Shown here: positions 29,286-33,936 of the stretch, one piece after another
Layout of the letters: every line of letters begins with the position of its first letter
How positions within the stretch are numbered: position 1 is the first letter of the stretch
From: a virus
DNA length: 42,596 nucleotides
Direction: 5' to 3' (one strand)
Virus record (IMG/VR): IMGVR_UViG_3300048927_000255
Location: 1 to 42,596 of that record
Notes under the pieces: model-generated
The model's database searches: none
What the model saw: only the letters and a program-made list of their open reading frames with translations
Told to the model about the DNA's origin: nothing
Made by a program: the position numbers and the translations under genes

Positions 29286-29471
29286 ATGAAATACAGCGAG
29301 TTCAGGCGGTGGCTGCTGAAACAGGGCGTGAAGTTGGAACCCCACAAATCAGGTAGCAGCCACTTCAAAGCAACCCTTGGCGATCGGATAACAAGCTTTC
29401 CAGACCACGGCACCAAAGAGATAGGTAAAGGGCTGGTAGAGAAGATCAAAAAGGATCTTGGACTGAAGTAA
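29286..29471 (+). CDS. hicA: HicA toxin, mRNA interferase
   Basis: 61 residues, full family length. Starts MKYSEFRRWLLKQG; SGSSHFKAT (22-30) carries the catalytic His26 in the GSSHF/GSHH position of the dsRBD-like fold, and TSFPDHGTKEIGKGL is the usual C-terminal block. HicA cuts mRNA when not held by HicB. Ribosome site AGGGGAGG is strong. It lies upstream of hicB, the normal order. Confidence 0.93.
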   Translation: MKYSEFRRWLLKQGVKLEPHKSGSSHFKATLGDRITSFPDHGTKEIGKGLVEKIKKDLGLK

Positions 29472-29540
29472 AGGAGGTGGCCCGCAAGGGCTGCCTCTTA
29501 CCCGTTGTATGAATGCCTCCCCAATCACAGAGGACACACC

Positions 29541-29954
29541 ATGTTGACCTACTGCTACACCCTGACGCCGGACACGAACGGCACGAACTTGATTCAGTAC
29601 CCGGATCTGCCTGAAGGCGCGTCCGTCAGCGAAGGCGAACACGACCTGCAGGCCAACGCCGCAGAGGGGCTTGAAGCTGTCCTACAGATGTACATCGACG
29701 CGCGCCGGCCGATCCCCCTGCCTACGTCTGTAGGGGATGGCAGCGTGACGCTGGGCGCGCTGGCGACCGCGAAGGTCTTTCTGTCTAACGAAATGGTCCA
29801 GCAAGGCATCCGCAAGACCGAACTGGCACGCCGCCTGGGCGTACACAATCCGCAAGTGGACCGCCTGCTAGATCTGTCGCACAGTTCCAAGCTGGAAGCA
29901 ATCGAGGCCGCGTTCCATGACCTCGGCCGCCGCCTCGACATTTCGGTTGCGTAG
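29541..29954 (+). CDS. hicB: HicB antitoxin with C-terminal HTH
   Basis: 137 residues from ATG 29541 (AGAGGA upstream). The N-terminal partial RNase-H-like fold (YPDLPEGASVSEGE...AAEGLEAVLQMYID...IPLP) is followed by an HTH domain (KTELARRLGVHNPQVDRLLD) that should bind the hic operator. It neutralises HicA. The gene follows hicA by 69 bases. Confidence 0.92.
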   Translation: MLTYCYTLTPDTNGTNLIQYPDLPEGASVSEGEHDLQANAAEGLEAVLQMYIDARRPIPLPTSVGDGSVTLGALATAKVFLSNEMVQQGIRKTELARRLGVHNPQVDRLLDLSHSSKLEAIEAAFHDLGRRLDISVA

Positions 29955-30243: not shown

Positions 30244-30768
30244 CTATCCTCTGTGCTCCTTCATCCTAATTGCTTCCTTTTTGGTCATCCAATTTACCGC
30301 CAACCAATCAAAGGCCTTGTAATAGCGATTGTTCCCAACCTGCTTCGCCCGGATGTAGGGGCGAAATGAGGTCCACACATCGGTCACAAATGTGGCATAA
30401 GAATTAAACAATAAGCCTTCGTCATACACATCCTGCTGAATGCCAATTGCCATGCGTTCAAAGCAGTTGAGTACGTTCCTAATGCTCTCTAGGTTTGCCC
30501 GGTCGCCTTCGGTTGCCGGCGTCGTGGCATCAATCTTGGAAAGTCGCTCCACCTCTTCGGTAGAAAGCTTCTTTGAAAGGTCGGCAACACGGTACATGTC
30601 CTTGAGAACTCTTTCAGAACACACGTAGTTGTTCTGTAAGTCAATGGCATGTTTCGCACGCGTCAATCTCTGCTGTGATCGCCAGTTCGCCAGAGCGACC
30701 AGCGCTGTGAGCGCGATGATCGGAACGGTGGGGTTGATCTTCAGAAAAGCTAGGATGGAAGCAAGCAT
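30244..30768 (-). CDS. membrane-anchored protein, DUF4760-like; moron candidate
   Basis: 174 residues. One N-terminal membrane segment (about 13-29, PTVPIIALTALVALANW), then a soluble helical domain with LESIRNVLNCFERMAIGIQQ and later VYDEGLLF, the DUF4760-type pattern (lN.fE.iaigi..g.yde). The gene is AT-richer than its neighbours, has its own terminator and sits alone between the early and late operons, as lysogen-expressed cargo would. There is no Shine-Dalgarno before ATG 30768; instead a terminator-like hairpin ends just 2 bases upstream. Role unknown; possible superinfection exclusion or host defence. Confidence 0.75.
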   Translation of the reverse strand: MLASILAFLKINPTVPIIALTALVALANWRSQQRLTRAKHAIDLQNNYVCSERVLKDMYRVADLSKKLSTEEVERLSKIDATTPATEGDRANLESIRNVLNCFERMAIGIQQDVYDEGLLFNSYATFVTDVWTSFRPYIRAKQVGNNRYYKAFDWLAVNWMTKKEAIRMKEHRG

Positions 30769-30769
30769 A

Positions 30770-30793
30770 GAAAAAGGCGCCGGTTAGGCGCCT
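30770..30793 (-). terminator. terminator-like hairpin abutting a start codon
   Basis: AGGCGCC (30775-30781), loop GGTTA, GGCGCCT (30787-30793); on the minus strand five U follow directly and the ATG of the membrane gene comes 2 bases later. Confidence 0.65.
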
Positions 30794-30832
30794 CATTCTA
30801 TTGGTAGATCGCTGAAATTGCTACAAAACAAT

Positions 30833-30868
30833 TCAGCTACCGAAATCCTGTTCACGGGTCATGGTCAT
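30833..30868 (-). CDS. 11-codon leader peptide candidate
   Basis: On the minus strand AAAAGGAGC is followed after 6 bases by ATG (30868) and an ORF coding MTMTREQDFGS, stop at 30833-30835. The strong ribosome site contrasts with its absence before the next gene. It ends 40 bases before the terminator hairpin at 30770-30793, an attenuation-like layout. Could also simply be the start of an untranslated leader. Confidence 0.35.
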   Translation of the reverse strand: MTMTREQDFGS

Positions 30869-30977
30869 ATTGGGCTCCTTTTCTTGGGCCGTGAGAACGC
30901 ACGGCAGCGTGTCAAGAGGTTCAATTTACACAAAGCTAAACGAAAGAGCAAATGAACTAAAGACTGCAAGGAAGCGA

Positions 30978-31152
30978 GTTAGGGAACTACAGTCAGTCTC
31001 GCTAATAGAGTACACGTTAGCTGCTGCGTTAGCTACCTAACAAACTTCTGTGTTAGCAAGCCAACAAGTTCAGCAACTTCTAATAGATAGACAACTAGGT
31101 TAGCTACGCAGTTCCCTAACCATCGGTCATTAAATTAGGTACGCACCCTAAT
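30978..31152. repeat. non-coding AT-rich island with GTTAGC/CCTAA repeats and an 11-bp inverted repeat
   Basis: Perfect inverted repeat GTTAGGGAACT (30978-30988) / AGTTCCCTAAC (31110-31120). Between them GTTAGC occurs at 31016, 31028, 31052 and 31099; GTTAGCTACCTAAC at 31028-31041 is itself a near palindrome. AAGTT-CAGC-AACTT (31066-31079) is another hairpin, and TTAGG-N7-CCTAA (31136-31152 region) follows. No ORF of note on either strand from 30870 to 31279. It lies between the Q-like gene and the late operon, where lambda has its late promoter. Confidence 0.6.
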
Positions 31153-31177
31153 TAATCAATCCATCACGAAACAACGC

Positions 31178-31212
31178 AAAAAGCCCGCTGCTTTCGCTGG
31201 CGGGCTTTCTTT
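31178..31212 (-). terminator. bidirectional terminator at the end of the early operon
   Basis: GCCCGC (31183-31188) pairs with GCGGGC (31200-31205), extended by AAA/TTT; U-rich on both strands. On the minus strand it lies 68 bases after the Q-like gene. On the plus strand it would end any transcript from the repeat island. Confidence 0.8.
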
Positions 31213-31279: not shown

Positions 31280-31921
31280 TCAATCACAAAGACCTTTTGC
31301 CGACAACAGGTCTGCGGCGAATTCCATCGCCAACGCCTCAACGCCCTTCTGCCCCGCGCCACGTTCGCCGCGCTTCTGTTTCGTGGTGCGCGTGCCATAG
31401 AGCCACAGCTTGATCTTGCCGTTGTGATTGGTCGCCGTGGCAGCGCTCACGCCCGCACGGTCGGCAGCATCTGACAGCTTTACGTCCTTCCCGAAGTACC
31501 GGGCCACGATGGCGTCACGCAAGACGCGCGGCGTCGGATGCGCCGATAACGCATCACACGCCGCCGCGTCGGAGATTTCGCGCACCGCCGCAAGCCAGTC
31601 ATGTCGGTCTACCGTGCCCTGGCAGCACTTGCACTTGTCCGTGCGAGGAGCAAAGCGCGCGACAAGAATGGCCCGGTAAAGGCGCGGCATTGGCTCCAGC
31701 GCGCCCAAGATGATTCCTGCCTGCCCCGTTCCGTCCGCGCCCCCAAGCCCCTTGCCCGATGAAGGGCCTTGAGCCAGCCGGCCAATCACCGGCTTGTCAT
31801 AGACTTGATCAGAATGGTTGTACGCGAAGGTCAGCGCCGCATGAGCGGTAGCGAATAGTCGGGTGGCTTTCGCCTCTACGACTGGGGTCGAAGCCAGGCG
31901 GGAAAGCGTCAAGGTGGTCAT
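31280..31921 (-). CDS. Q-like late regulator with C-terminal HTH
   Basis: 213 residues. The middle GTGQAGIILGALEPMPRLYR and ILVARFAPRTDKCKCCQGTV with three close Cys suggests a zinc-binding site; the C-terminal VLRDAIVARYFGKDVKLSDA then ADRAGVSAATATNHNGKI is a sigma-like helix-turn-helix. Proteins of this shape close the early operon of many beta- and gamma-proteobacterial prophages and are thought to act as Q-type antiterminators or late activators. Function here is inferred from position and HTH. It overlaps the nuclease gene as TGATG. Confidence 0.6.
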   Translation of the reverse strand: MTTLTLSRLASTPVVEAKATRLFATAHAALTFAYNHSDQVYDKPVIGRLAQGPSSGKGLGGADGTGQAGIILGALEPMPRLYRAILVARFAPRTDKCKCCQGTVDRHDWLAAVREISDAAACDALSAHPTPRVLRDAIVARYFGKDVKLSDAADRAGVSAATATNHNGKIKLWLYGTRTTKQKRGERGAGQKGVEALAMEFAADLLSAKGLCD

Positions 31922-33107: not shown

Positions 33108-33936
33108 AGTCGTTGCCTCCTTGGGGGCGAGTGCGATTGCGGTTTACGTGGGCGGTCGGATTGAACTTGCCTGGGCGCGGTGCGCCCCCAGCTGCTGCAC
33201 CGCTCGGGACAAACAGCCCTTGCCAGCTTTTCCCGATGGCGTGCGTGATGACTGCCTCCGGCGTATGGCCTTGCTTGCGAAAGCCGTCCAGGTCCATGAC
33301 CTGCTGCTTTGCTGCCTCTTCGGTCAACGGCTTACGGATCTGCACGCGGTGACGTACCCAGCGCCCCCACAGTTCTGCATCCAGCCAGTCCGGCATTTCC
33401 AAGCTCATCGGGTCGAACCCCGGCGAGCGCTTGCGCACGCCTTTAGGTTCATTGACGGTTCCTTGATGGTTCAATGACGGTTCGGGTGCAGCTGCTGCAC
33501 CCCGTGGCGTCGCCATTTGCACCCCGTGACGTCGTGAATTGCACCCCGTGGCGTCGCCATTTGCACCCCGTTCGTTACGGGGTGCAGCAGCTGCACCCCG
33601 CTCTTGATCCTCGGAATGTTCCACGCGGGGTGAAACTGGTGCACCCCGTGAAAGATCAATGTCGTAGCAAACCGGACGCTGATCGGCTCGCCGGATGTAG
33701 GCTTTGACCAGATCCTGATTGCCGCGCTGTATTACCTTTTGGCTTTCCAACTCACGCAGCTTGTTCTGCACCGTGCGAGTGGACAGCCCGGTGTCTTCCG
33801 CCAGGGTGGCCACAGAGGGGAATGCGCCCTCACCCTTTGGCCCCGCATAATTGGCAAGGCACAGCAGCACGTGACGGGCGGATGCCTCGGTCACAACCCT
33901 TTGCGCCAAGGCCCATGTCATCGCCTGAACGCTCAT
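33079..33936 (-). CDS. O-like replication initiator carrying the origin
   Basis: 285 residues. A winged-helix domain at about 15-75 (FPSVATLAEDTGLSTRTVQN, then KLRELESQKVIQRG) is the DNA-binding part. The middle (about 95-150) is a low-complexity linker (RGAAAAPRNERGANGDATGC) whose DNA is the iteron array at 33484-33650. The C-terminal part (MPDWLDAELWGRWVRHRVQI) should contact the loader. This is the lambda O plan, where the origin lies within the gene. Confidence 0.82.
   Translation of the reverse strand: MSVQAMTWALAQRVVTEASARHVLLCLANYAGPKGEGAFPSVATLAEDTGLSTRTVQNKLRELESQKVIQRGNQDLVKAYIRRADQRPVCYDIDLSRGAPVSPRVEHSEDQERGAAAAPRNERGANGDATGCNSRRHGVQMATPRGAAAAPEPSLNHQGTVNEPKGVRKRSPGFDPMSLEMPDWLDAELWGRWVRHRVQIRKPLTEEAAKQQVMDLDGFRKQGHTPEAVITHAIGKSWQGLFVPSGAAAGGAPRPGKFNPTAHVNRNRTRPQGGNDYDDGRTIDA
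33484..33650. other. candidate replication origin: four 22-bp iterons and flanking palindromes
   Basis: TGCACCCCGT starts at 33496, 33518, 33540 and 33562, an exact 22-bp period. GGGTGCA-GCTGC-TGCACCC opens the array (33484-33502) and CGGGGTGCA-GCAGC-TGCACCCCG follows it (33578-33600); a further TGCACCCCGTG lies at 33640-33650. On the other side (33445-33484) the motif GGTTC recurs in AT-richer DNA that could be the unwinding region. Confidence 0.85.

Follow-up and report, generated by a model that had tools for sequence, protein, structure and literature searches.

A repeat island behind the late terminator of an Achromobacter prophage: a possible promoter and folded leader for an accessory DUF4760 unit with a micropeptide gene

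The repeat island at positions 30978-31152 of an Achromobacter prophage is tentatively best explained as the 5' region of an accessory unit behind the late terminator, providing a promoter and a structured leader RNA for a micropeptide gene and a DUF4760 gene. The window, i.e. the whole stretch of 42,596 nucleotides analysed here, represents a prophage at tRNA-Leu, and its host flank shows 85-98% identity to Achromobacter; the first 1288 bases match chromosomes of this genus with up to 98% identity. The late genes are transcribed from the minus strand, on which the Q-like gene is followed by the late promoter, the terminator, the island, a predicted second promoter, a micro-ORF, a further terminator and the DUF4760 gene. 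Past the latter, hicAB on the plus strand and then the HNH and terminase genes are found. The HicA-HicB toxin-antitoxin pair (29286-29954) thereby lies on the plus strand within the late-transcribed region, so that late transcription runs antisense through it.

The late promoter is located at 31275-31247 on the minus strand, outside the island. As indicated by an alignment of 20 sequences, by further relatives and by the promoter scan, it comprises the elements TTGCAA-17-TAAAGT with a TG extension, and the scan ranks it as the best sigma-70-like site on the minus strand of the whole window. It is followed by a two-way, tR'-like late-leader terminator at 31208-31178 (minus strand), formed by the stem AAAGCCCGC/GCGGGCTTT and a T-run, the position of which is conserved and the stem of which shows compensatory changes among relatives. 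Both elements are conserved in approximately 30 related prophages, found via the Q-position gene and, for the further ones, through another gene. The lambdoid arrangement of a promoter and an early terminator directly after the Q-position gene is thus present at 31275-31178 and not in the island. The original prediction had assigned the island to the position of the lambda late promoter and had placed it ahead of a two-way terminator; since the conserved promoter and terminator precede it, the island is downstream of both, and on the late-transcribed strand it begins past the terminator.

The gene directly before the conserved late promoter (31280-31921, minus strand) encodes a protein of 213 amino acids, which is a putative late antiterminator by its position only and has no match in Pfam, PHROG or PDB. 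It possibly represents a new Q type, as relatives keep the late promoter and terminator after it. A separate region at 33426-33650, densely filled with repeats in direct and inverted orientation (GGTGCAACAG-like iterons), lies within the O-like replication gene and is probably the phage origin.

The position behind the late terminator is a cargo slot that contains unrelated extra genes across Achromobacter prophages. Sequence similarity with all aligned relatives (approximately 30 loci) stops at 31142-31178, beyond which each of them carries unlike DNA. The farthest-reaching alignments, with loci L120 and L138, stop at 31142, and in both loci tRNA-like DNA follows the terminator. In addition, the slot harbors tRNA-Gly(TCC) genes in loci L002, L004 and L012, small genes in L004 and L005, and other sequence in other relatives. 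In locus L009 a LexA-like palindrome, ATACTGTATAAAAATACAGTAT, as read by eye, opens the cargo directly behind the late terminator. The tRNA genes and this palindrome indicate that accessory units in the slot can bring their own control. Likewise, Achromobacter phage CF418P1 carries a tRNA after a distant homologue of the Q-position gene and before the terminase. The island and the DUF4760 unit occur in one phage, and its close relatives lack them at this position, as is characteristic of a moron.

The DUF4760 gene itself (30244-30768, minus strand) encodes a protein of 174 amino acids (PF15956, E=7.6e-25) with a probable N-terminal membrane helix, as read by eye. Upstream of it we observed an unannotated micro-ORF of 11 codons, MTMTREQDFGS*, at 30833-30868 (minus strand), preceded by a strong ribosome site (AAGGAG, 30880-30875), and a two-way terminator at 30774-30794 separates the two genes. 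The promoter scan predicts a unit promoter, TTGCTC-17-TAAATT, at 30923-30951 (minus strand), which would leave a leader of about 50 nt before the micro-ORF; comparably short leaders are present in the DUF4760 loci L092 and L096.

The micro-ORF is a recurrent companion of DUF4760. Its peptide motif was found before 17 of 30 DUF4760 genes and in none of 287 comparable short ORFs in a background of 916 kb, a contrast somewhat flattered because the regular expression was fitted to the same peptides. The micropeptides have approximately 10-18 residues, share an acidic-aromatic-glycine motif (EQDFG, EEDW, EGWDG, EGTDG) and a strong ribosome site, and lie within about 50-200 nt before the DUF4760 gene. 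Apart from the window, they are encoded in loci L085-L093, L096-L099, L101-L103, L105, L112 and L113, and the pairs occur in phages as well as in chromosomes. Examples include MTSREQDYGY, MKLDEQDFGQ, MINLLATNAAAMEQDFGY, MNRIHREEDWI, MKVMKLHREGWNG, MTAHREGWDGC, MQLNREGWDD, MKPQEGSNGLE and MFLPKGIALEGTDGY, in addition to MMKKTYQEEDWGFDIKS from Vibrio phage E8498 and MVKKIFRLEEENWDV from a Pantoea plasmid. Two arrangements can be distinguished: in class A (EQDFG) a terminator lies between the micro-ORF and the DUF4760 gene, and in class B (EGWDG) the stop codon of the micro-ORF abuts the DUF4760 start in loci L087 and L089. In the literature searched we did not find a description of a micropeptide gene before DUF4760. 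This conserved gene, which stands beside the island rather than in it, is the most interesting item of the region.

The motifs that had drawn attention to the island are all present. A perfect 11-bp inverted repeat is formed by GTTAGGGAACT (30978-30988) and AGTTCCCTAAC (31110-31120), and GTTAGC occurs at 31016, 31028, 31052 and 31099, i.e. in four of its eight plus-strand copies in the 42.6-kb window. A near-palindrome, GTTAGCTACCTAAC, is found at 31028, AAGTTCAGCAACTT occupies 31066-31079, and TTAGG-N7-CCTAA spans 31135-31151. The GC content of the island is 43%, as compared to approximately 60% window-wide. When the same 175 bp were subjected to 5000 dinucleotide shuffles, an inverted repeat of at least 11 bp appeared in 0.44% (P=0.004) and four same-strand copies of a 6-mer in 0.32% (P=0.003) of the shuffles, the latter rising to 3.9% with both strands counted; jointly, a long inverted repeat and a 6-mer with at least four copies (both strands counted) were obtained in 0.02%, figures that overstate the true surprise because the motifs were picked post hoc by eye and several cover the same bases. 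The rarity in shuffled sequences nevertheless indicates that the repeat observation is real, in line with the original prediction that the density exceeds chance.

The GTTAGC copies do not correspond to an operator of the phage. They were rejected as CI or hicAB operator sites, since the motifs are lacking both in the hicA promoter and in TGGTAAACGCTTGTTTACCA, which, as read by eye, is the likely CI operator. Moreover, the island shares no 12-mer with the remainder of the phage, and it contains neither a tRNA nor an Rfam RNA, the sole Rfam match in the window being the tRNA-Leu. A decayed protein gene was likewise rejected, as all open frames are short and no protein family was matched.

Read as RNA, the island forms one long imperfect hairpin on the minus strand (30978-31120), which is closed by the 11-bp inverted repeat and contains the GTTAGC copies (GCUAAC in the transcript); these are largely parts of the self-complementary fold. 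The segment 31123-30975 folds with -57.6 kcal/mol into a single hairpin of 51 pairs, six of which are G-U. Its shuffled counterparts reach a mean of -39.1 (sd 3.7), and one in 1000 was as stable (z = -4.95). With 100 shuffles each, z was -6.2 on the minus strand, a value that moved to -4.95 with 1000, as compared to -2.7 on the plus strand. The fold of the adjoining sequence 30977-30794 is unremarkable; 9 of 772 phage windows also reach z <= -4. The promoter scan places a further predicted promoter, TTGATT-16-TAATTT, directly before the hairpin (31159-31132, minus strand; TTGATT at 31159, TAATTT at 31137), so that transcription would be expected to begin around 31125, where the hairpin has its foot. 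Among the best four sigma-70-like starts on the minus strand window-wide, three are the late, the island and the unit promoters, although AT-rich DNA favours such matches. Judged from this one sequence, the hairpin may act as RNA, either as a leader or as a small RNA.

In the main rival reading, which is less likely, the island would be passive foreign DNA: an AT-rich stretch that arrived as a flank of the DUF4760 unit, has no function of its own and owes its repeats to old duplications or to a decayed element. This would agree with the want of coding capacity noted above, with the ready exchange of slot content and with the other DUF4760 units, which do without the island. It would also agree with the homology searches. 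Three exact patterns did not retrieve the island from IMG/VR, and searches with DNA patterns and blastn were likewise negative for 43 genomes of Achromobacter, 268 of the family and 369 of the order, as well as for 85 individual loci, phages, plasmids and E. coli. A one-sequence covariance model of the hairpin yielded no second instance, and matches in the family genomes were short and apparently unrelated, with the exception of the gltB palindrome described below. As single-sequence queries these null results are weak evidence, but close relatives that carry the flanking block plainly do so without the island. Against passive DNA speak the fold, which is far more stable than that of shuffled sequences, the arms of 11 bp, which are still perfect, and the placement of a promoter-like site and a palindrome exactly before the hairpin.

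None of the other DUF4760 units has the hairpin of the island; unrelated hairpins precede several of them, and some are not preceded by a hairpin at all. As these hairpins are at differing places and mutually unlike, we do not claim that they are homologous. Loci L097 (about 2160-2210) and L090 contain a perfect hairpin of at least 20 bp, CTAGCCTTCCTACGAGTAGC-ATG-GCTACTCGTAGGAAGGCTAG, just before the promoter of the DUF4760 unit, and Vibrio phage E8498 (L099) has a different long hairpin.

The palindrome TTAGGGTGCGTACCTAA (31135-31151, minus strand) overlaps the 16-bp spacer of the predicted island promoter, and the window contains no other such site. A host palindrome, ATTAGGGTGCGTCCCTAAT, which is identical to it at 16 of 17 positions, was found in 7 of 268 family genomes and in none of the reversed control, and in each of these 7 Alcaligenaceae genomes it is located upstream of gltB. 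With the flanks included, 27 of 29 bases agree with loci L052/L053. This resemblance suggests a host-type operator. In a distinctly less probable reading the island would be a DNA-binding array, in which 31135-31151 is bound by the regulator that acts on gltB in the host, or by a related protein, and the TTAG/CTAA motifs serve as weaker sites; the unit would thereby be tied to the nitrogen or glutamate state of the host. However, the gltB match was found after the fact, and the site of Achromobacter itself has diverged (ATAGGGTGTGTCCCTAT); with up to 3 mismatches allowed, it was found in only 4 of the 43 genomes. Moreover, the TTAG/CTAA half-sites of the island have 6 mismatches at best, and a looser pattern gave 26 matches in viral contigs, all of them chance-like. 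The proposed site for a DNA-binding protein is partly supported, for the palindrome only; GTTAGC is unlike the operators of this phage.

The palindrome AATTAGGGTGCGTCCCTAATT is present upstream of gltB in the Alcaligenaceae loci L042, L047-L054 and L056-L058 (at about 1500), often together with further GTCCCTAATT half-sites, and looks like an undescribed operator of glutamate synthase; a report of its regulator was not found in the literature searched. A RAYT-like (Y1 transposase) gene adjoins gltB in 9 of the 12 loci compared, and in the other 3 the palindrome is present without such a gene in the stretch examined.

With still less probability, the hairpin would be a stand-alone small RNA, made from the promoter at 31159-31132, processed or ending near 30960 and independent of the DUF4760 unit. 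The predicted start at the foot of the hairpin and the tRNA genes that relatives carry in the same slot would fit. However, there is no terminator at the end of the hairpin, the next one being that at 30794-30774, and neither Rfam nor our searches revealed a relative or a second copy. The earlier suggestion of a small RNA with a terminator hence retains the stable minus-strand fold and the promoter-like site just before it, and loses the terminator. An activator-binding array or another cis element of the late promoter is very improbable: the island does lie between the early and late genes, about 100 bp or less from that promoter, but it is downstream of promoter and terminator, and all of the approximately 30 relatives with the same promoter region and Q-like gene position are without it. 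None of the motifs is conserved in related prophages, one part of the outcome that the original prediction itself had named as its refutation, and the failure to find a homologue likewise argues against a conserved activator array.

Taken together, we favour, tentatively, the promoter and structured leader of the micropeptide-DUF4760 unit. An accessory 'moron' unit would have entered the variable slot that begins past the late promoter and terminator. As long as the phage is lysogenic, late transcription would end near 31178, and expression of the unit would depend on one or both of its own predicted promoters, the first of which is possibly under a host-type regulator acting via the palindrome. 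After induction, late read-through would cross the hairpin and the accessory unit. A more speculative extension, to which we give a low probability, is that hairpin RNA, micropeptide and DUF4760 membrane protein constitute an accessory system of three parts. Either the RNA or the peptide would then gate the expression or activity of the membrane protein, and the state of the host would be sensed via a captured gltB-type operator. The analysis gives a corrected position for the late promoter in a group of Achromobacter prophages and reveals the slot behind the late terminator as a cargo site. Moreover, DUF4760 is mentioned in a single paper of the literature searched, and the micropeptide offers a first starting point for testing what it does.

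The region is reminiscent of pR'-tR' and Q of lambda, where a Q-like gene is likewise followed immediately by a strong promoter and by variable cargo before the terminase genes; here, the terminator is approximately 65 nt downstream of the expected late start. In contrast to the lambdoid Q region, the protein encoded at the Q position could not be assigned to a known Q family, and the island is outside the conserved block. The cargo slot is comparable to that of Stx phages, which carry tRNA and stx genes near Q, with tRNAs reported around stx2a (PMC7946995). The palindrome shares its core and flanks with the gltB upstream site of Alcaligenaceae to the extent given above, but is present here as a single copy, in a phage and not near gltB. 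REP/RAYT palindromes occur in many genomic copies and bear a GTAG or CGTC tag (PMC3733652); the host gltB palindrome contains GCGTCCC, the phage has a single copy and host copies were found only at gltB, and this reading was not adopted. A retron was rejected, as none of the ten genes that were scanned around the island, between 27.8 and 34.4 kb, encodes a reverse transcriptase. The order of a repeat-bearing RNA, a terminator and a protein gene resembles type III toxin-antitoxin systems (ToxIN), which differ in that the protein here is DUF4760 rather than a ToxN-type nuclease, a tandem repeat antitoxin array is lacking and a micro-ORF intervenes; as no ToxN/AbiQ-family toxin was present and PADLOC gave no match, this assignment was rejected. 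Phage morons, accessory units with a promoter and a terminator of their own, are likewise AT-rich, confined to one phage and absent in near relatives; here, the promoters are predicted and a terminator was found. The unit described here differs in that a long hairpin RNA would form its start, followed by a micro-ORF, and in that it carries DUF4760 as its cargo.
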